Source: a virus. From it: 47,207 bases of DNA. The notes beneath the pieces were generated by a model. That model was given only the letters and a program-made list of their open reading frames with translations, made no database searches and was not told the origin of the DNA. A program made the position numbers and the translations under genes. This document shows, piece after piece, positions 7,217-38,714 of this stretch. Numbering within the stretch: the first letter of the stretch is position 1; each line of letters starts with the position of its first letter. The stretch lies in the IMG/VR virus record IMGVR_UViG_3300034283_000889, positions 1-47,207 of that record; one strand, 5' to 3'.

Positions 7217-7441
7217 ATGCGTAACACCAAGCAACCCACAATCGAGACCATCACCCAATGGCGTGACCAAGCAGGCGCACTCTGGTGCGCTCAGGTCTAC
7301 TACCCCAACGGCAAGCGTGACCCCTACACCATCCACATCGTGAGCAAGGTAGGCACAACCATCAGCATCCCCTGTGCATCCGTCTCTCAGCTCTGGCATG
7401 AGGTCAGCATCCGTCAACAGCAAGCCCTCCCCGGCTTCTGA
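7217..7441 (+). CDS. Unknown small protein, 74 aa
   Basis: I chose ATG at 7217 because AAGGAGACAACC precedes it; the frame is open further upstream but would overlap the previous gene. The protein contains WCAQVYYPNGKRDPYTIHIV and looks like a small beta-sheet domain. It is the last gene before the inverted-repeat region, and its TGA stop runs directly into an AGAGAGA hairpin. Function unknown. Confidence 0.65.
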   Translation: MRNTKQPTIETITQWRDQAGALWCAQVYYPNGKRDPYTIHIVSKVGTTISIPCASVSQLWHEVSIRQQQALPGF

Positions 7442-7458: not shown

Positions 7459-7484
7459 GACAGCTTAAAATAACCCGAAAAAAT

Positions 7485-7545
7485 AGTGTCCAAAACTTTA
7501 ACACGCGTTTTCAAAAACCGGACAGCGTCTAGCCCGCATGGTTGC
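7485..7545 (+). repeat. Inverted repeat, left arm (61 bp)
   Basis: Aligned with the reverse complement of 7739-7799 without gaps, 50 of 61 bases match by my count. Mismatches cluster in short spacers, leaving conserved blocks AGTGTCC, CTTTAACACG, AAAAACCGGACAG and CCCGCATGGTTGC. Confidence 0.85.
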
Positions 7546-7700
7546 GTGGCTCCACGCTTTTCTGTCCTATCTATCTATCTATATATATACAATATAGATT
7601 AGAAGAAGAAGTATTAGGGGTTTGTTCAGACTGGCTCTCGTTTTTCCAGTCTGTCTAAAAACTTAGCTAATAGTTTTGTTTAGGCAGTCTGCCTTCACAT

Positions 7701-7730
7701 TTGACATAGATAGCTGGACACTTTTATATC
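7701..7730 (+). promoter_or_regulatory. Candidate promoter inside the inverted-repeat locus
   Basis: TTGACA (7701-7706) is a perfect -35 box, 18 nt before TATATC (7725-7730). The spacer holds GCTGGACA, also found in the spacer of the 13668 promoter. It would drive the 250-aa gene at 7833. Confidence 0.5.
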
Positions 7731-7738
7731 TGCCCCTA

Positions 7739-7799
7739 GCAACCATGCGGGTTTGCGACTGTCCGGTTTTTCAAATGCCGTGTTAAAGTATCGGACACT
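7739..7799 (-). repeat. Inverted repeat, right arm (61 bp)
   Basis: Partner of 7485-7545 in opposite orientation, with four conserved blocks of 7 to 13 bp. It ends 33 nt before the start of the 250-aa gene. Confidence 0.85.
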
Positions 7800-7832
7800 T
7801 TTCTGTCAACCTATTATTTTAAGGAGTTCTTC

Positions 7833-8585
7833 ATGGACTACACCGTCAAAAGCTGGTGGCTTGATGTGAGCGAGGCGACCCTACGCACACGATTGTTCAG
7901 GCAACACAAGGAGATGCCGCCCGAGATGGTCTCCAACATCGTGGCCCATGTGCAGGTGTTGAAGGCCGAGCGCCGCAAGGAACGCATCAAGTCCACCGTC
8001 ACCAATAAAAGTTGGGAGCCACTGCTGGCCAGCGCAAGAGCCGAACGCCAGACCCTGCTGGTTATGAAAGCACAGCTTAAAAATAAAGTGCCCTTGGATG
8101 AGCGCAAGTGGAACGCCGTGTGTGCATACGAGACCGCCATATCAGCGGTGATTGAGCGGCTGGTCAAACTCAAGCGAGCCGGGGACTCGACACCTAAAAG
8201 TTTTGTGGCCGCACTGAAGAAAGAGCGAGGCGTGTCCATCCCTAACGAGGGCACACACTGGTCGGACTATGTGAAGGCAAGCGACAGGCAACGAGTCAAC
8301 GCCCTGTTTGATGCACTGCCCCAACCTGCCCGAGGCAAACGCAAGACCCCATTCGAGCGGCGCATACCCAAAGCGGTGAGCAAAGCCCAGAGGTTTGCTC
8401 TGGTCGAGCGACTAAGCGGAGAGATTGCCAGCGCCGAGCGTGAGTACGAGGTGACGCAAGACCCCGAGGCACAGGACAAACTCAACCGCCAACTGGACGC
8501 CATGTACAGGGCGCAACACATACTGGACAACCTCCCCGCAACAGCCCCTCTGCCTGCCACATGGCACGGACTGCTGAACAAATAA
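7833..8585 (+). CDS. Unknown basic protein next to the inverted repeats, 250 aa
   Basis: ATG at 7833 has a good AAGGAG site. The protein is strongly basic and helical, with many K/R-rich stretches (KAERRKERIKSTV near 48-60, ARGKRKTPFERRIPKAVSKA near 167-186) and a C-terminal helical hairpin. There are no Cys pairs, Walker motifs or membrane segments. It could bind nucleic acid, judging from charge, and its place right beside the repeat locus makes an origin- or operator-binding role possible. I recognise no family, so this stays inference. An AGAGAGA hairpin follows the stop codon. Confidence 0.75.
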   Translation: MDYTVKSWWLDVSEATLRTRLFRQHKEMPPEMVSNIVAHVQVLKAERRKERIKSTVTNKSWEPLLASARAERQTLLVMKAQLKNKVPLDERKWNAVCAYETAISAVIERLVKLKRAGDSTPKSFVAALKKERGVSIPNEGTHWSDYVKASDRQRVNALFDALPQPARGKRKTPFERRIPKAVSKAQRFALVERLSGEIASAEREYEVTQDPEAQDKLNRQLDAMYRAQHILDNLPATAPLPATWHGLLNK

Positions 8586-28655: not shown

Positions 28656-28803
28656 GAGGGGGCAGGGGTTTTTTGTCCCCTGCCTCGACTACGAGTTAGT
28701 CCGCAAAGCAGGCCTCAGTGAGGCGCTGCGCTGCCGCATCTTCGACGCTAAAGCCTACCCCGCCGTCCACAATGGACTCAGCGGGGTGTGGTTCTATCGT
28801 TAA
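28615..28803 (+). CDS. Small conserved-looking protein at operon end, 62 aa
   Basis: The frame overlaps the end of the primase-helicase gene by 41 nt and ends at 28803, where its TAA interlocks with the stop of the opposing giant gene. The product includes RGQGFFVPCLDYELVRKAGL and ends NGLSGVWFYR, phrases I recognise from small phage proteins of unknown role. A GC-rich hairpin (28661-28684) lies inside the coding sequence. The ribosome site is not obvious, so coupling to the upstream gene is likely. Confidence 0.6.
   Translation: MIRYSRAFPWSRVKRGQGFFVPCLDYELVRKAGLSEALRCRIFDAKAYPAVHNGLSGVWFYR
28661..28684 (+). terminator. GC-rich hairpin near the convergent operon ends
   Basis: GGCAGGGG (28661-28668) pairs perfectly with CCCCTGCC (28677-28684) around an 8-nt T-rich loop. 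No T-tract follows on either strand, so it is not a standard terminator. It could still act in both directions as a weak or factor-dependent stop, or protect mRNA ends. It is within the 62-aa gene. Confidence 0.4.
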
Positions 28804-31800
28804 GGCTCGTAGCTGCTGGCACCTTGGCGCACGGTTTCCGCAAGCCTGATCTTCACTTGGCGCACCGCATCGAGCTGGTCACGCTTTTCTTGAGGTGTCA
28901 GATCAGACGCACGGATGGCACGCTCGTACTGCGACAGCTCCCGCATCTGGTTCGTAAACTCAGAAGCCATTTCGCTCAGCATGTACTCTTTGCTCCGCGT
29001 TTCCATCAACTCACGCGCCTTGGCCATTTCACCGCGCTCAACGTAAGAGTTGATCGTGTCGCCCACGGCAGCGAACTTGTTCATCTTCTCGTACGCGTCG
29101 TTGATGATTGCACCCGCATCGTTTGGCTGGAAGGCGCTACCGACAACAGGCAGCTCAGACAAGCGCTTGAACGCTTTCTCAGGCGAACCTGCTGACGAGA
29201 ACGGCGAGCTAACAGCCTGCAAAAACGCAAGGCCCATCGTGCCGGTGTAACCCTTGACCAGCTCCTCGATCTTGATCGGGGATGCGCCCACCGAACTGCC
29301 CAACAACTTGGCAATCTCCGTGGTGTTTTCCCGGTACTGCGCCTCTGGCAGCAACGTCTTCTCATGCCCAGACAAAATGTCGCGCTGTGTGAAGAACGAT
29401 TTGCCAAGCGAAGTCTCAATGATCGGCTTGACAGCTGCCGGGATGGGCAGTGGCACAGGAACTTTAACGCCGCCAAACTCGACTGTAGGCATGCTGGAGC
29501 CGCCCGGAATAGTCTGAATCAGGATTTGGTTAAACGCCTTGACCGCTTCCTCAGACCCGTGCTCGTTCATCATGCTGTTGTACAGCGCCTCGGGCAAAGC
29601 CTTGAAGATGTAACCGATTTCAAACGGGATTGGGATACGCAGGGGTTCGTCCAGACCGGGCACGCGCACAAACCAGTTGCCGTACTTCTGCTCAGGCGTT
29701 GCGTTTTTGTACGCTTCGTCGTCTTGCATGTACGCGGCATAGGCCAGTGTACCGGCAGCAATCATCAGGCCGCGTGTCAGCAGTTTCTCCTGAATCTTCA
29801 ACCGCTCGTTGAAAGGCAGGTTGCCGGTCATGGCTTTGTACAGCACGTTCAAACCCTGAATCTGGGCGTTGAAGAACGGCACCATCGAGTTGATCCAGTG
29901 CACGCTTGGAGACGCACCGCGCTTGTTAAAGTTCATCGACTCCAGCGCCAAGTACGTGGCTTCCATTTCGGACAAGCCTTGCTTGATGTAGCTGTTGTAC
30001 TGAGCACGGCGAGTCAACGCGTCTGCTTCCATTGTCATGGTTTCGGCAGCGCCAACCAACTGCGTCCAAGCCCCACGCCCACCTGTAACATCGCGCAAAA
30101 TCTTGGTCAAATCGTCTGGACCGCCAGTAAAGACTTGACCGCCCGTGATACCGCGAGACTCCAGCGTGCCCTTGGTGGCAGAACCGATCTCTCGCAACGC
30201 GCCCATAACAGGCGTGAAGTTTGCCCCGGAGATAAGCGGTGCGGCCAACGAGTCACGGAACAACTGCCGAGCAGCGTAGAGTGGCGACAGGGTAATGGCA
30301 CGGCGCAAGATGTTGGCAGGCATGCCCAACGCACGAACCGCAAATGGGAACTGGGTGGGGATACCCTCCATGCCTTTGACCAAGATGTCCGCAGGGATGC
30401 CTGCTTTGTCGGTGTTAATCAAAGCGTAGCGATCGCCCGTATCCTTGTCGTTCTCAGGCTCCATCTTGAACTTGACCACGTTGGGGCCGGACATTACCTT
30501 CTTGGTAATCTTAGCCAGACCCATCTCCACCAGCTCAAACACGGCGTTCTTCGTGGCTTGGTTGCGCAACGCCATGTCCGTCAGCAAGTTGGTGTTTTGC
30601 ACAACGCTTGTCATGAAGTCCAGAATGGGCGCATCGCCGCCGACCAGCTCCTGCAAGTAAGGCTGCTCAGCAATACTGCCGATACGGATTGGGCTTTCCC
30701 CACCCAACATCAGCTCCACAACGCCGTTGCGCTGGCGGTAGTAAGGCACGTAGTCCTCGTTCTTGAGCAACTCTGCCACGGTCTCCTCGGACAGCGCGGA
30801 AGTTTGCGCAGCAAAACGCAACAGGTTTTTGTTGTACGCGTTGTACTCGGCTCGCGCCTGCTTGAACAAAGTCTCCAGTCCGGGTGTGTTCTCAATCGCA
30901 CGCATAGCTTGGTCCAGCTGTGACTGAGACACTTTGCTGCTCATGCTGAGCACATCCAAACCTTTGGCCTTGGCGCGGAAGTTGGCCAAGTAGAGCGTAA
31001 ACAACCGGCTGGCTGCATCTGGACTACCCACCAACGGCGCTGCTTTCTTAAGAATTTCGGCCACAGTCCGAGGGCTAGGGCCCTTGACGCTTTCAATCAG
31101 GTACTCTTTCTGGCCGTCTTTGCGCGTTTTCTCAATGCGTTGGAGTGCGCCGTTGCCCACAGACTGAGCCACAAGGTTCATGCGCTGGTCGTACATACGC
31201 AGGTAGTACATCATCTGGGTTCCGCGCAGCGAAGGCATGGTCTTTGCCAAACGCTCAAACCCGGCAAAGCGGTCGACCATCTGCGTTTCAAACGCAAGGC
31301 CGGAGCCGTTGGCTTTGATCTTGTCGTACAGGTTCCGCTCTTTGGCAATAACGGTATCGACCACTGCACCGGCAGCAGCCAACTCAGGTGTTGCGTACTC
31401 CACGCGCAACGACAGCAGACCGGTAGGCGACATATAGGCGCCCGCAGTTTGTTGCTGCATTCTGCGTGTAGCTTGGAACAGCGTGTAGTACAGGTCGCTT
31501 GAGCTGACCGAGGCCATGTTGACCAGACCCATACCTTTGAGCCAGCTGCGGATAGCGCCCAGCACAGTGCGGATGTAACGCCCGGCTTTGCTGATAAGGG
31601 ACTCGTCCACAGTGCGCTCTTGCAGGTGCGCCAATATTTCGCGCACAGACTGCACTTCGCCCATGCGGCGCAGATAAGCAGCTTTCTCTTTGTCGCCGCG
31701 ACTTTCTGCCTCGGAGGCTTTTGCTTCCCAAGCCAGCGCCGTAAAGGCCACGTCCTCTTCCACGCCCAACGCCTTGGCCATGCCGTAAATACCGCCTTCG

Positions 31801-34800
31801 CCAGTACGAATAGCCTTGGTCAAGTCCATCATGCCTTGTGGGCCCAACACCAGATCAACACCGTAGTGACCTACGGCTTCGTGAACAAGCGTCTGCTCCA
31901 AGTCCTTCAGGCTGTTGTGCATGTCGCCAATCACAACAATGGTGCCGTCTGCCAGCACACCGCCTTTAACTGTAGACTCGCGCACGTCGATGTCAGCATC
32001 TGCCAATGCACGCAAGAATTTCACGGGAGCTTGGCCCATGGTTGGCGCGTACACAAACTTGACGTCAGAAGGCAGCTTGCTGGCAAACTTGTCAGCCGTT
32101 GCCTTAGCAGCAGCGGCGTCTACCGGCACAAAGTCAACGCCTTTTTCCACACGCAGAACAACGTCGCTGCTTGGGCCTTTCTCATCAGCCAGTTTGTTGA
32201 CGTACCCGGCGGTTACTTCTTTCAGCGCTCGGTTGTACTCGGGGCTTCCTTCTGGATACATCGTGACGATGCGGTCCATCTTGGCCAGTTTTTCAGCCTT
32301 CTTGTACACACGCGATTCCGCTGTGGTGGCGGTGCGCAGCTGCTGGTTCTGTTTAATTCTTGGCGCAACGTCAGTGTTCTTCTCCTGCTGCGCAAGAGTG
32401 CGCGTTGCCTGAGCCAAGTCCTTGACGTTCTCTGCCATCGGTGCGCGTGTGGCGCCTTTGGTTTCTTCCGTAGGCTTATCCAACACCAAGCTGTCTGCAA
32501 CACGTTTAGCTGCAAAGTACTTGTCTGTCAGCTCTTTCAAACGTGCTTCGTTCTTAAGCTCCATCGGCTTCAGGCGGGTCAGCAGCTCCGCTTCTTTGGC
32601 TTCAAGCTGCGTAATGCTGTTGTTGAACTCCGCAATACGGCGGTTAAACGCCAGTTCTCCGAGAGCGCTGGTGCCGTTATCCCATTTAGCTTGCAGTGTG
32701 TCGCGCTGCGACTTAGCGCTGGCCAACGAATCTTGGACGTTGCGCACAGCTTGGCGTTGCTGGCTGATTTCTGTCTGGCCTTTGAGCGCACGAACGTGTT
32801 CAATCTGCTTGCGCAAAGTCTCTTGTTCAGCACGAGCCTCAAAGTATTTCTTCGCGTCAGCGTTGCTCAGGCTCTTCAAAGACTGCATGATCTGCAAGTC
32901 CTGATCTCCGGCAGTCGGCTCAGCGCCCACCACCTCTTGCACTGTGACGTAGCGAGCACCCGCCAGCTCTTCCATGAGCTTGGTGTTGCGGTCAAGGTTG
33001 CGCCTTGCCGCTTCCATCTTTGCGGCGTCGCCTTCGCGCTGCGCTTTGTTGTACGCAGAGCGGGCTTTCTTCAAGCGGTCATACGCCTTGTTGGCATCGA
33101 GGCTCTTTTGAGACTTGGCTTCGTCCGTGGCTTCGGGGTCCAGCTTAGGGTCGTAGTCGAACACTGGGCCGTCATTGGTGTAGCGCACCGACCAACCAGC
33201 GTTCATGGTCTGCACTTTGCGACCAGTGCCGTACGCACCGCTAATTGACGCAGCAGCCAAACCTTCTTTACTCAGTGCTTTGACGCGGGTAACTCGCGTG
33301 GCAGGCAACCCAAAGCCCTGCTCAATCCGAGCTTTCTGGGCACGTTCACGATCACGCAAATCTTGTTTGGCGTCGTCCACAACTTTTTGTGCACGCAGCA
33401 AAGCTGCGCGGCGCTTAGCAATATCGGCGGCTTTCTTGGCGTCATTGAACGCAACCCGCTCCTCCGCCCGTTTGAGCTTGGTCCAAGCGTCTTTCAAAAT
33501 CGAGTCTGAACGGCGCAACATTTGAACTTCTGCATCTTGTGCAGCCTGAATGTTGTCGCGCAGCGCTTGGATGTTGGTTGCCAAATCGCCCAATTCTTTC
33601 TCTAGCTTGGCCACTTCAAAGCGCCCAACCCAGTAGTTCTTGGCTACGTCCTCATCAGACGGGGCAGCAGCTTTGTACTTATCAAGCGCTTCTTTTGCGG
33701 TCTTCTCCGCCTTGAGCAGCTCTTCCAGTTTTGCTGCGTCCTGTTCAGCAGTCGCAGGGATGTACTCGCGTGAGCGAAGTTTGGCGCGGCTAAAAGCGTT
33801 CTTAAAAGGCTCAGCAGGATCAAAGTCCATGCTGTACTCTTCCATGAAACTTTCGGTCAAGTACTTGACGCGCCCTTCGGCGGTCTGCATGAACTTGCCC
33901 TCTTCCAACTCAGCGCGTTGCGCCATGAGCTGCTCAATCTCTAGTTGCAACAGACCTCGTTGATCTGGCGCCAAGCGCCCCATCTCTTCGCGGGTTTCGC
34001 GTATCTTGGTGTTGACGGCAGCAATCTGCTTGTCAATTGCATTTTCTGTTGCGGTTTCTTCTGCAACCTGCTCTTTCACAGGACGGACAACGCCGTACTT
34101 TTTAGCCCGCTCGTCTACAGCGTCCATGGTTTGCTTCAGCGAGTCCACGTTTTGCTGGGCCATAGCCACAGCGATGTCGCGGTCTTCACCCTTGACGTCT
34201 TGTCCGGCAATCTTGGCTTGGGCAACAAGCGCCTGCACATCGGGAGAGTACTGGCTGATGCTCAAGAGCTCAGCGTTCTCGGACATCTTCTTAAATGCGT
34301 CACTGAGAGCAGCCAAGCGCTTAGCTTCGGCATCAAACGCTCTCCAGCGAGCACGCTCCGTTTTGACTTTAGAGGCGTACGCATCTGCTTTTTTCTTAGC
34401 CATGGCGTCTGCTTGCAGCCCATACTGCCCCGAAAGCTCGGCGTAGTAGTTAAACGCTGTGCGTGTACCAAGCTGTTTGCGCAGGTTTTGAAGCGCGGTC
34501 ATGGCCACCACGTAGTCTGTACGAGCCTGCTGCACTTCGGCCAAACTGACAGGCATGGTGTTTGTCACGGCTTGCACTTGCTTGCGCAACTTAGCAATCT
34601 TGCCGTACATCGACGAGCCAAGGAACTGCTCAGCAGTCTCGAAGATCACGCCTTGCACAGGGTCAGCGGCAAACAATTCCCCGGTTTGGGTGTCGATGCT
34701 GCCCACAAACAAACCCATGTCGGCCTGTGCAGCGCGGTTCTCCACCAGTGAGTTCTGCAGTGCGTCCAGTTGTTTGGTCAAGACACGCAGCGTGGCAGCT

Positions 34801-37800
34801 TGCTCTGCGGTAAAACTTCTGCGGGCAGGCACTTTGTCGCCCAGCTTGACTTCGGTTGCTTCCGTCTTGCCGGACAACTCGTCAATTTGCTTTTGCGTAT
34901 CCGCAATCGCACGCTCCAAAGCGCGTTGGTTATCTTCCAACTCCGAACCCATCTGGTTGGCAGCTTTCTCCCCCAGATCAAGCGCGTTCATGCGCTTGAG
35001 CAGCGCAGCTGTGGTGTCGTAGTCTTTGGCGGCAAACGCTTCTTTGATCTGCTCTTGCAAAGCCTGCGCTTCGTCGCGGCGCTCTTTGAACGAAGTTGGA
35101 ACTGGGCGCTCTTCCAGCTCCTTCTCCTGCATCTTGTTATAGCGGTCTTTGAGGGACGCAATCTGCTTGGTCAAAGTTTCGCGTTCGTCGCCAGCGCCTT
35201 GCTTGCTCTTGAGATCGTCCAACCGCTTTTGTTTTTCGCGGATGTCTTTGAGCAGGTTATCGGCGCGGTTGAGCGCGGGGACTTCCACACGTTTTGGCAA
35301 AGGCGAAACCAGCAGCTGGTCAAAAGCCTTATCCAACTCACCCTTGATGACTTCCAGAGCACGGGGAATATTGGCAAACGGACGCTGCGCCAGTGGGCGA
35401 ATGTCTTTCTCAAACTTAGCGGTCGTTACCTTGTCGGCAGTAAGTCGCTGCAACAGCTTGACAATTTCTTCGGTTACTTTGGCGTCTTTGTCGTTGAAAA
35501 TGTCAAAGGCTTTCTTGGCCTGCAGGTACTTTTTCTCAGCCGCATCGCGTTGTCTTTGGGCAGTGCTTCCTTCGGGGCCGGTAGGCATCGCCAAATATTT
35601 TTGACGTGCAGGCTCCACAAACTGTGCTTGCTGCTGCGCAGCGCCACCACGCAAACGCTTGGACTCTTCTTGCTTTGCAAGGATGCGCTTTCTCAACGGC
35701 GCGTTTGCAGACTCCAACAGTTTGTTGAGCTTGGCTTGCTGGGCATCACGGGCCTCACCCTCGGGCATGCCTTTGATCTTGTTGTACAGATCAAGACCCA
35801 ACTGGCGCAAACCAACCACAGTCTCAGTCTCACGCCGTGCAATGTAGCGCTCGGACAGCTCTTTCAAAGCTGTCTGCATCTTACCGGTGGCGTCCATGAC
35901 CTGAGCGGCAGAGAGCTGGGGTTGTCCCAGCGCAGCGCGTGTATGCGCTGCTTCTTTCAGCGCTGCTTGCACGTAGGCCGCACGCAGTTTGGCCAGTTTC
36001 TGCAAGTCGTATTTGTGCAGTTCTGCCTTCGCCCCTTTGATGGCCTCAAGGGTCTCGATGATTTTGTCGTAGGTTTCCTGCTTGATTGCAGCCTGACGAC
36101 GCGCTTCGATGCGGTGACGCACTGCGCTGATCTTGTCCTGCTGAGCGGTATCGGTGCTGGCTACTCCCAACAACGCTTCTTTGCTTGGCATGCCCAAAGC
36201 GGATGCCAACTCGGACGTTTCCTCGGGGGTGATCTTCTCGATCGGAGGCAGTGTGGTGTCGATGGTGATGCCGCGCTGCGGAGCTGCGGCCAACTTTTCT
36301 GCTGTACGCTCGTCCTTGGCAGCAGCACCGCGTTCTTCACGGGTGCGTGTAATGTGCTGGAGCAAACGCTCAAGCTCTTGGGTCTGCACATCGCGGCGGA
36401 TGATGTCACGCGCTTCTGGGGTCAAACGCCCTTGCGCGTCATACAGAGAGTCTTCAGCGTATGCGTCACCAATAAACGTGTCCAACAAATCTTGCGCCTG
36501 CTTCTTGCGGGCGGTCAGGGCGTCGCGGAGTTTGCTCTCCACCAGCTGCGCTTGTTGGGGGTCAGCCAGATCAATGTTGCGGTTGCCAAGCCCGGTCAAG
36601 CCGATGAAAGCGCGAACGTCTTTGTTGATGATGCCTGAGTCAATCGCTTCGTCCACGGCACTCTTGCTCAGTGCTGGGCCTTGCGCTTCCAAATCGGCGG
36701 CTTCTTTTTCGGACAAGTCGCGGCTCACGCCTTTCTCGTCCACGGTGTAGGCCACACGCTTTGTCGGACCTGAAGTACCGCTGATGGGCACTTGGCGATA
36801 TAGAACTTTAGTAGCAGGTGTTTCTTCTTGAATAGCGCCTCTACGCAGCGAATCCGCGTACTGCTCAGGTGTCAGCTCAAACGACTTACCCAGTTCGCGC
36901 TCGTCCAGCTTTTCTTCAAGTTCCTGACCTTGTTCAAACAACGCCGTCTGTTGTTGTGCAGCCTTGCTTGGTTTCTCTTCGCGTGCTGGCTGATTGCCAA
37001 AGCCTTCTTCAATCTCAGCAATATCTTGCTTGAGTGCCTTTTGTTCGTAACCGGGGGCAAACATATCTGTTTGCTCGGCGGGCATTGCCCGCACGTTTCG
37101 TCCCAGTGTGGCGCTGGAGACTGTTTGTGCTTGGGCTTTTTGTTGCGCGTTCAAGTCGCGCAACTGCACCGCAAGTTCCTGCGCCTTACCAAAATCGCCA
37201 GAATCAACAGCTTTTTGCAATGCCTTTTCAACCGCGTCAGCGTCAACCTCTTTGGGCATCAACGCCTTGATCTGCTTTTGAATAGCCGCCAGACTCGTTT
37301 CTGCGGGGGCCATCTGCTCCAACTGCCGAGACAGCTCGATCACACGGTCCATGTTATTTGTTTTTAACGCTGCGTCCAGTTGCGCTTGCAGATCAGGAAC
37401 GGTGCGACGCAGGGCGTCGGTTTCGTTTTGCGCACGCGTGCGCACCAGATCAAACACTTCGTCTGGCGTTTTCTGTGCAAGGTCAGCGTCGGTGTAGCCC
37501 AGCCCTTTGGCCAACTCGGTGATCTTCTCGGCGCGTTTTTCTTCTTCACCTCGCAGTGTTGAATACTTACCGGTTACAGTGGTGTCGCCCATCTGGGCCA
37601 GCAACTCCGGTGTGCCTGTCTTGCGAGCTTCCGCCGCCGTAGCGGCTTGCTGTTTTGCCAGCGCTGCCTGTGCGTCACGAGCTTCTTCCTCCTGCAAGGC
37701 TTGCAGTGAGGCTTCTTGACGTGCAGCTTCTTGTTCTTCGCGGATTTTTGCGCGTGCGCCAGAGCGGTCGGATAAGCGGCCTGCGGCGCCGATAGGGGCC

Positions 37801-38714
37801 AACAAACCGACTTGGTAAGCTGTTTCACCGTACTCGGCAAGAGCGTCGGGGGAAGTCAAGGACAGCCCTGCCTGCGCCCGCTCCAGCATTTGCTGGGCAA
37901 TTTCAGTGGGGATTTCAGCCACAGCACCGACGGCGGTGCCCTTGGCCAGCGTGGCGAGCAGGCGTTCGTCTGCCAGTTTTGCAGCCTGCGCAGCAGTCTT
38001 ACCCATCAGCGCTTCTGCCGGGATACCGGTCAGCTTGCTGACAAGGCGTCCGCCTAACGGGATAAAGGTACCGGCAACATCCAAGGCAGCTTGAGGGGCG
38101 GCTGCGGCCAAGGCGGCAGTGCGGTCAATTGCAACGGGCTTGCCTGCTTCTTGTTGCTCAGCGGCTTGGCGCTCAATGTTGCTGCCAAACATTTGAACAA
38201 AACCGGGAATGGCTGCGCCGCCTAAACCACCAACAACACGGCCTGCAGGGCCGAAGAAGGAGCCTGCGGTTTGACCCAAACGGGCGCTGGCCAGTGTAGT
38301 CCCCATGTTAGGGAGCTGCTCTGCAATGGCTGCAGGGATTTGGTTGATGGCTTCGCCTGCAGCGGGCAACAAACCGCGCTCAGCGTAGGCTTGCTTTACT
38401 TTGTCGAGGCTGACTTGATCTTCGTAGCGGCGGCTCATGTCCTCGCCACGGGCCAGACCTGCCTTTGCAGCCTCTTCGGGGGAACCCATCAGGGCGCTGA
38501 TACCTGTGCGCCCAGTGGAGATTAGGGACTCAACCCCTTTGCCCAGTGCGGCTCCGATGCCGCTCTTCTTTGCAGCTTTTTCTGGCTCTTGCGCAGTGGC
38601 TTGAGGAGCCATCTGCGTTTCGACATACGCCAGAATGTCTGCTTCTGAAGCGCCAGCAGGCCCTTCTACTTTGTAAATACGCCCATCGGGGCCTTGTACA
38701 CGGTATGTGGGCAT
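28800..38714 (-). CDS. Giant polyvalent internal virion protein, 3304 aa
   Basis: One uninterrupted frame of 9.9 kb. It begins with a small domain MPTYRVQGPDGRIYKVEGPA seen at the start of many large phage ejection proteins. About residues 150-250 are glycine/alanine-rich and may contact membranes (FGPAGRVVGGLGGAAIPGF). Residues 330-2200 are mostly charged coiled coil. A metallopeptidase-like motif HEAVGHYG lies at H2278-E2279 to H2283. From about 2450 to the end it resembles large polyvalent protein domain LPD38, with RRAITLSPLYAARQLFRDSL near 2795 and VRVPGLDEPLRIPIPFEIGY. Such proteins are packaged and injected with DNA to protect or process it. Enzymatic activity is inferred. Confidence 0.85.
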   Translation of the reverse strand: MPTYRVQGPDGRIYKVEGPAGASEADILAYVETQMAPQATAQEPEKAAKKSGIGAALGKGVESLISTGRTGISALMGSPEEAAKAGLARGEDMSRRYEDQVSLDKVKQAYAERGLLPAAGEAINQIPAAIAEQLPNMGTTLASARLGQTAGSFFGPAGRVVGGLGGAAIPGFVQMFGSNIERQAAEQQEAGKPVAIDRTAALAAAAPQAALDVAGTFIPLGGRLVSKLTGIPAEALMGKTAAQAAKLADERLLATLAKGTAVGAVAEIPTEIAQQMLERAQAGLSLTSPDALAEYGETAYQVGLLAPIGAAGRLSDRSGARAKIREEQEAARQEASLQALQEEEARDAQAALAKQQAATAAEARKTGTPELLAQMGDTTVTGKYSTLRGEEEKRAEKITELAKGLGYTDADLAQKTPDEVFDLVRTRAQNETDALRRTVPDLQAQLDAALKTNNMDRVIELSRQLEQMAPAETSLAAIQKQIKALMPKEVDADAVEKALQKAVDSGDFGKAQELAVQLRDLNAQQKAQAQTVSSATLGRNVRAMPAEQTDMFAPGYEQKALKQDIAEIEEGFGNQPAREEKPSKAAQQQTALFEQGQELEEKLDERELGKSFELTPEQYADSLRRGAIQEETPATKVLYRQVPISGTSGPTKRVAYTVDEKGVSRDLSEKEAADLEAQGPALSKSAVDEAIDSGIINKDVRAFIGLTGLGNRNIDLADPQQAQLVESKLRDALTARKKQAQDLLDTFIGDAYAEDSLYDAQGRLTPEARDIIRRDVQTQELERLLQHITRTREERGAAAKDERTAEKLAAAPQRGITIDTTLPPIEKITPEETSELASALGMPSKEALLGVASTDTAQQDKISAVRHRIEARRQAAIKQETYDKIIETLEAIKGAKAELHKYDLQKLAKLRAAYVQAALKEAAHTRAALGQPQLSAAQVMDATGKMQTALKELSERYIARRETETVVGLRQLGLDLYNKIKGMPEGEARDAQQAKLNKLLESANAPLRKRILAKQEESKRLRGGAAQQQAQFVEPARQKYLAMPTGPEGSTAQRQRDAAEKKYLQAKKAFDIFNDKDAKVTEEIVKLLQRLTADKVTTAKFEKDIRPLAQRPFANIPRALEVIKGELDKAFDQLLVSPLPKRVEVPALNRADNLLKDIREKQKRLDDLKSKQGAGDERETLTKQIASLKDRYNKMQEKELEERPVPTSFKERRDEAQALQEQIKEAFAAKDYDTTAALLKRMNALDLGEKAANQMGSELEDNQRALERAIADTQKQIDELSGKTEATEVKLGDKVPARRSFTAEQAATLRVLTKQLDALQNSLVENRAAQADMGLFVGSIDTQTGELFAADPVQGVIFETAEQFLGSSMYGKIAKLRKQVQAVTNTMPVSLAEVQQARTDYVVAMTALQNLRKQLGTRTAFNYYAELSGQYGLQADAMAKKKADAYASKVKTERARWRAFDAEAKRLAALSDAFKKMSENAELLSISQYSPDVQALVAQAKIAGQDVKGEDRDIAVAMAQQNVDSLKQTMDAVDERAKKYGVVRPVKEQVAEETATENAIDKQIAAVNTKIRETREEMGRLAPDQRGLLQLEIEQLMAQRAELEEGKFMQTAEGRVKYLTESFMEEYSMDFDPAEPFKNAFSRAKLRSREYIPATAEQDAAKLEELLKAEKTAKEALDKYKAAAPSDEDVAKNYWVGRFEVAKLEKELGDLATNIQALRDNIQAAQDAEVQMLRRSDSILKDAWTKLKRAEERVAFNDAKKAADIAKRRAALLRAQKVVDDAKQDLRDRERAQKARIEQGFGLPATRVTRVKALSKEGLAAASISGAYGTGRKVQTMNAGWSVRYTNDGPVFDYDPKLDPEATDEAKSQKSLDANKAYDRLKKARSAYNKAQREGDAAKMEAARRNLDRNTKLMEELAGARYVTVQEVVGAEPTAGDQDLQIMQSLKSLSNADAKKYFEARAEQETLRKQIEHVRALKGQTEISQQRQAVRNVQDSLASAKSQRDTLQAKWDNGTSALGELAFNRRIAEFNNSITQLEAKEAELLTRLKPMELKNEARLKELTDKYFAAKRVADSLVLDKPTEETKGATRAPMAENVKDLAQATRTLAQQEKNTDVAPRIKQNQQLRTATTAESRVYKKAEKLAKMDRIVTMYPEGSPEYNRALKEVTAGYVNKLADEKGPSSDVVLRVEKGVDFVPVDAAAAKATADKFASKLPSDVKFVYAPTMGQAPVKFLRALADADIDVRESTVKGGVLADGTIVVIGDMHNSLKDLEQTLVHEAVGHYGVDLVLGPQGMMDLTKAIRTGEGGIYGMAKALGVEEDVAFTALAWEAKASEAESRGDKEKAAYLRRMGEVQSVREILAHLQERTVDESLISKAGRYIRTVLGAIRSWLKGMGLVNMASVSSSDLYYTLFQATRRMQQQTAGAYMSPTGLLSLRVEYATPELAAAGAVVDTVIAKERNLYDKIKANGSGLAFETQMVDRFAGFERLAKTMPSLRGTQMMYYLRMYDQRMNLVAQSVGNGALQRIEKTRKDGQKEYLIESVKGPSPRTVAEILKKAAPLVGSPDAASRLFTLYLANFRAKAKGLDVLSMSSKVSQSQLDQAMRAIENTPGLETLFKQARAEYNAYNKNLLRFAAQTSALSEETVAELLKNEDYVPYYRQRNGVVELMLGGESPIRIGSIAEQPYLQELVGGDAPILDFMTSVVQNTNLLTDMALRNQATKNAVFELVEMGLAKITKKVMSGPNVVKFKMEPENDKDTGDRYALINTDKAGIPADILVKGMEGIPTQFPFAVRALGMPANILRRAITLSPLYAARQLFRDSLAAPLISGANFTPVMGALREIGSATKGTLESRGITGGQVFTGGPDDLTKILRDVTGGRGAWTQLVGAAETMTMEADALTRRAQYNSYIKQGLSEMEATYLALESMNFNKRGASPSVHWINSMVPFFNAQIQGLNVLYKAMTGNLPFNERLKIQEKLLTRGLMIAAGTLAYAAYMQDDEAYKNATPEQKYGNWFVRVPGLDEPLRIPIPFEIGYIFKALPEALYNSMMNEHGSEEAVKAFNQILIQTIPGGSSMPTVEFGGVKVPVPLPIPAAVKPIIETSLGKSFFTQRDILSGHEKTLLPEAQYRENTTEIAKLLGSSVGASPIKIEELVKGYTGTMGLAFLQAVSSPFSSAGSPEKAFKRLSELPVVGSAFQPNDAGAIINDAYEKMNKFAAVGDTINSYVERGEMAKARELMETRSKEYMLSEMASEFTNQMRELSQYERAIRASDLTPQEKRDQLDAVRQVKIRLAETVRQGASSYEP

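Follow-up and report, generated by a model that had tools for sequence, protein, structure and literature searches.

A mirror-symmetric, AT-cored DNA element conserved beside a new phage protein family is a candidate origin of replication

What is the function of a long inverted repeat that lies between two co-oriented genes of a virus, around the most AT-rich DNA of its genome? The question arose from a 47,207-nt viral sequence (IMG/VR record IMGVR_UViG_3300034283_000889, analysed over its whole length and hereafter called the window), for which an earlier note, made from the letters alone, had proposed a replication origin or control hub. Two ungapped arms of 61 nt (7485-7545 and 7739-7799) match at 50 of 61 positions across an interval of 193 nt, exactly as that note described; the runner-up among comparable inverted pairs in the window reaches 37/61. 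The arms can be extended to 69 nt (7477-7545 and 7739-7807, 80% complementary, the left arm being unique in the window), and beyond them lies an outer pair, TTAAAATAA at 7465-7473 and TTATTTTAA at 7814-7822, so that the unit spans ~350 bp, from about 7465 to 7822. This element is both the strongest inverted repeat and the most AT-rich stretch of the window, and its folding energy departs strongly from that of shuffled sequences (z = -10.8 as DNA and about -12 as RNA, on either strand). Literature searches returned no published description of it.

Within the element, six copies of GGACA or TGTCC form three mirror pairs, with start-to-start spacings of 33, 43, 153, 44 and 33 nt. The left arm carries the outer site (TGTCC, 7487-7491, minus strand), assigned by position and symmetry, and the middle site (GGACA, 7520-7524, plus strand), followed by a deeply conserved block, AGCCCGCATGG (7531-7541, plus strand), which reads AACCCGCRTGG in relatives and in the phage KPP25. 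The core between the arms (7546-7738), presumed to be the region that unwinds, holds the contig's most AT-rich 150-nt window, a small central hairpin (GACTGG...CCAGTC, 7629-7651) and the two inner sites, one on the left (TGTCC, 7563-7567, minus strand, continuing into CTATCTATCTATCTAT) and one on the right (GGACA, 7716-7720, plus strand). These form part of an inner inverted pair, TGTCCTATCTATCTAT at 7563 and ATAGATAGCTGGACA at 7706-7720, which had also been claimed and is present. In the right arm, the mirror copy of the conserved block (CCATGCGGGTT, 7743-7753, minus strand) precedes the middle site (TGTCC, 7760-7764, minus strand) and the outer site (GGACA, 7793-7797, plus strand), the latter adjoining the presumed promoter of the downstream gene; the outer right palindrome half continues into an AAGGAG ribosome site. 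Two further claims of the earlier note fared less well. The sigma70-like promoter placed between the arms is not there, weak consensus matches being found only at the left edge and in a number (2) close to the chance expectation of 0.8 ± 1.0. The mismatches do not cluster significantly in spacers between conserved blocks when the window is taken alone (10 runs, P = 0.25), whereas such blocks do emerge when relatives are compared.

The flanking genes point the same way, as claimed. Upstream lies a 74-aa gene (7217-7441, plus strand) that is outside the conserved unit, and downstream the gene of a 250-aa protein (7833-8585, plus strand) that is basic (pI 9.96), predicted to be all-helical (AlphaFold pLDDT 92) and presumed to bind the sites. 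Rightward genes between about 6.4 and 28.7 kb encode a family A DNA polymerase, a PD-(D/E)XK nuclease, an SNF2 helicase and a DUF927-type primase-helicase, and leftward genes encode the terminase, portal, endolysin and other virion proteins; the element lies close to where the rightward block begins, immediately ahead of the 250-aa gene. No recognised initiator was found among the proteins of the window genome that were scanned, and no end repeats were found in the record. In seven of eight near-complete relatives, GC skew has its turning point no more than about 2 kb from the element. Since gene direction switches at the same place, we did not use the skew as support.

The element proved to be widely conserved. 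In well over a hundred viral contigs it keeps its mirror symmetry and adjoins the gene of an unknown basic protein. Of the 52 distinct regions upstream of the gene in relatives, 49 have an inverted repeat scoring well above shuffles. No inverted repeat ranks higher in the window or in seven of the eight near-complete relatives, and the element coincides with the genome's most AT-rich 150-nt window in most of these, in the window and in the cultured Pseudomonas phage KPP25. Loss of the arms from relatives that keep the neighbouring gene had been named in advance as a refutation; nearly all such relatives keep the element, the arms being degenerate in three contigs (L116, L119 and L163) and in several genomes with a zinc-finger gene discussed below. 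To link element and gene independently, the AT-rich core motif was scanned for without any use of the protein. The scan retrieved this element only, in 36 contigs, and a gene of the 250-aa family directly follows it in all 33 contigs that have enough downstream sequence, the remaining three ending at the contig edge. The upstream gene, in contrast, varies by lineage (a different gene is found in L010, L079, L080 and L142), while the element and the downstream gene stay paired. In full-length genomes containing it, the AACCCGCRTGG block is almost confined to the element, and it is far better conserved than the short site motifs. The outer palindrome pair is swapped in other clades for another matched pair, e.g. 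GAGATTATTGAAG and CTTCAATAATCTC. Nothing was found to favour chance, an assembly artefact or a decayed mobile element as the source of the element; these are refuted by its conservation across many independent contigs and six isolated-phage records, and we regard the probability of such an origin as negligible.

The 250-aa protein belongs to a new family. Profile searches recovered 168 relatives, all from viral contigs; cellular genomes, named phages, Pfam, PHROGs and PDB yielded none. Sequence, family and fold searches were uninformative beyond two uncharacterised proteins of uncultured phages, and no Rep-type match was found in Pfam, PHROGs or PDB. Its basic charge, its position and the zinc-finger variants suggest that it binds DNA. 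The latter came to light in a first scan with the arm pattern, which returned 66 contigs, about half of them apparently chance matches as judged by arm score and AT content. The scan also yielded real elements that lack the 250-aa family, most of which adjoin the gene of a zinc-finger protein instead. One such zinc-finger family (A3) aligns with the 250-aa family (A2) at E = 9e-5, and the zinc finger is common to A3 and a further branch, A4 (E = 2e-7); judged by these alignments, the zinc-finger protein is probably a remote relative of the 250-aa family. A structure search with the zinc-finger variants gave no match, and their PHROG matches were weak and of endonuclease type. In one clade, the first codons of the downstream gene repeat the conserved block (CAACCCGCATGG, read Gln-Pro-Ala-Trp; L037 8133-8143 and L083 6017-6027), which is perhaps a further site inside the gene.

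We next asked at which level, DNA or RNA, selection acts on the arms. A structured non-coding RNA or 5' leader, transcribed from either strand and working as a ribonucleoprotein with the basic protein, would account for the fold energy (z about -12 on both strands) and for the compensatory changes between the arms: joint changes in the two arms are 2.6-16 times more frequent than they would be if the arms changed independently, a figure to be read with the reservation that the covarying pairs were picked by consensus folding, which favours kept pairs. A structured RNA should, however, tolerate G-U over A-C on one strand, and despite the covariation no such preference was found on either strand. 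Mismatch events counted by column were 37 for G-T and 45 for A-C, against simulated ratios of 492:25 for RNA and 21:27 for DNA, so that the test separates the two cases. The raw excess of A-C (351 vs 218) equals the base-composition control and is gone at the column level. Nor did Rfam yield a match at gathering score in the window, the element itself giving matches at chance level only. The lack of a G-T excess over A-C mismatches indicates that duplex DNA, as sites or as a cruciform, is selected rather than RNA; as far as comparison of the sequences goes, the constraint on the arms lies at the DNA level and not at the RNA level, and a functional RNA is very improbable. For metagenomic sequences, the same balance of G-T and A-C mismatches can tell whether an inverted repeat is constrained as DNA or belongs to a structured RNA.

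Duplex DNA could be selected for its own secondary structure or for the proteins that it binds. Were a cruciform or hairpin the working form, whether as fork barrier, resolvase target, packaging signal or recombination site, the strong covariation of the arms without strand preference and the extreme fold energies would follow. A loop of ~190 nt is nonetheless unfavourable for extrusion, and pairing alone does not require that one kind of motif recur at several places. Moreover, the inverted repeat has decayed in several zinc-finger genomes that retain directly repeated GTGGGCCAGT sites, which favours sites over a cruciform, and we consider secondary structure an improbable explanation. In L232 (2880-3000) and its relatives, three direct GTGGGCCAGT repeats ~22 nt apart stand just before the zinc-finger gene in an iteron-like arrangement. 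The motif found at matching places differs by clade (GGACA in the window, GCCA in L172, GGCCA in L017). Coordinated replacement, read off tables of 5-mers, thus appears to have occurred between clades, and suggests a single binding protein whose specificity has shifted between lineages; that one and the same protein recognises the sites is supported but not proven. A hairpin telomere with its protelomerase and a transposon were also considered and dropped, as the gene is not enclosed by the arms, the arms are imperfect and no recombinase lies adjacent.

At the nucleotide level, BLAST searches of named phages with the element or its region returned nothing useful, and cultured carriers were reached instead through the polymerase and a shared gene layout. 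KPP25 (Kochitakasuvirus), phiR18, CRPAP1904 and R4900a harbor an unannotated probable homologue of the element near the start of the early genes, and KPP25 and three related phages a second unannotated copy in the late genes, about half a genome away. In KPP25 the copies lie at 26.39-26.84 kb and about 58.22-58.56 kb (L193 28220-28560), and no other 150-nt window of that genome is as rich in A and T (0.69 and 0.65 for the copies, 0.56 for the next). Likenesses to the window's element comprise the conserved block (here AACCCGCGTGG), inverted arms, an AT-rich core and a corresponding place near the early-gene start; differences comprise the motif (TGTTACGA / TCGTGAC), the triplicated right arm, the presence of two copies and a neighbouring protein that is unrelated by HMM. 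The triplication is visible as three direct 49-nt repeats, 92-98% alike (L195 26618-26833). A search of KPP25 for A2, A3 and A4 proteins detected no homologue, and the GC skew of that phage shows no clean change at its element copies. Judged by the shared block, architecture and position, the KPP25-group element is probably homologous to that of the window. Rhizobium phage RHph_TM27A has a similar gene layout and was rejected as a carrier, since the corresponding place holds neither such an element nor such a protein; an unannotated stretch of ~680 nt at the corresponding early position (17.5-18.2 kb of that phage; L194 5523-6203) is unrelated to the element and possibly a structured RNA or a regulatory region.

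We propose that the element is a site of nucleoprotein assembly on duplex DNA, most likely a phage replication origin bound by the neighbouring protein, a reading to which we assign an even chance of being correct. In the mechanism that we infer, a phage protein would bind the short motif copies placed as mirror pairs in both arms, the binder most likely being the downstream basic helical protein or, in other lineages, its zinc-finger counterpart. Binding from two sides would bend or load the AT-rich core, which would open and admit the DUF927-type primase-helicase and the family A polymerase. The binder would probably also control its own synthesis, because the sites at the outer ends would overlap the presumed promoter of the gene downstream. 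An origin would explain the AT-rich core, the mirror sites, the linked basic protein, the occurrence once per genome, the position and the early and late pair of KPP25. The first proposal of an origin or control hub with selected protein sites is thus supported in part, by the conservation, the mirror sites, the AT-rich core, the link to the gene and the DNA-level constraint, while the skew check that it suggested is confounded with gene direction. An operator or transcription hub for the early genes alone, at which a repressor or activator (perhaps the 250-aa protein) would bind the mirror sites, form a loop across the AT-rich DNA and govern how the early operon is expressed, is the main competitor, though we hold it to be unlikely. 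The element does lie near the start of the early operon, and sites near the promoter of the gene fit an operator equally well. The outer sites adjoin -10-like hexamers that precede the gene, one example being the TACAAT that seven distinct relatives have at -29; such hexamers are found near the outer right site in many relatives with no clear -35, and the direct GTGGGCCAGT repeats of the zinc-finger genomes are just upstream of the gene. Yet a simple operator needs neither ~350 bp, nor a long conserved AT-rich core, nor arms of 60-130 nt, and the second copy of KPP25 lies within the late operon, away from the early promoters.

The proposed origin resembles known systems in part. Bacillus phage SPP1 has two origins, oriL and oriR, and an origin-binding protein, gp38; there too, repeats lie beside an AT-rich unwinding region, and oriL is tied to the binder's own early gene (PMC6316719, PMC3485210). 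The second copy of KPP25 falls in the late region, as does oriR in SPP1. The SPP1 repeats are direct and oriL lies inside gene 38, whereas the present element has its sites in mirror arrangement and ahead of the gene; no relation in sequence between the two came to light, and the window lineage is single-copy, a second copy having been searched for there and not found. Phage lambda ori likewise combines short repeats and an AT-rich region with a phage-encoded binder, the O protein, a role that is here proposed for the neighbouring protein; its iterons lie inside gene O, whereas the present element is intergenic and has inverted arms of 60-130 nt. Iteron plasmid origins have repeats near the initiator promoter, an AT-rich region and an autoregulated Rep. 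The element shares the first two and likely the feedback, but its sites are inverted and its protein has no Rep-type match. The clustered short repeats of SPP1- and lambda-type origins thus find their counterpart in the six mirror-placed sites, and the adjoining AT-rich region in the core, whose unwinding is presumed.

More tentatively, and with a greater chance of being wrong than right, the element and its neighbour may represent a new class of phage origin and a new family of initiators, mirror-symmetric and AT-cored, the motifs of which are swapped wholesale together with the neighbouring binder or by its replacement, some Pseudomonas phages carrying an early and a late copy. If the origin reading is right, an origin and a candidate initiator family would be at hand for a large, mostly uncultured group of phages with their own polymerase and primase-helicase, and site motifs that turn over so rapidly, apparently in concert, would offer a natural experiment in the co-evolution of protein and site. 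Since cultured phages of the KPP25 type carry the element, the hypothesis is testable now.

Two further features of the window were noted. Seven near-identical palindromes, GAGAGA-N-TCTCTC, occur in the early region only (6517, 6778, 7440, 8590, 9512, 10506 and 12534), three lying within genes and the other four at a stop codon or just beyond one; at corresponding places relatives carry another palindrome, specific to each genome, and these palindromes are candidate repressor operators, stoperators or terminators. Finally, a single open reading frame of 3304 aa (28800-38714, minus strand) lies among the virion genes.
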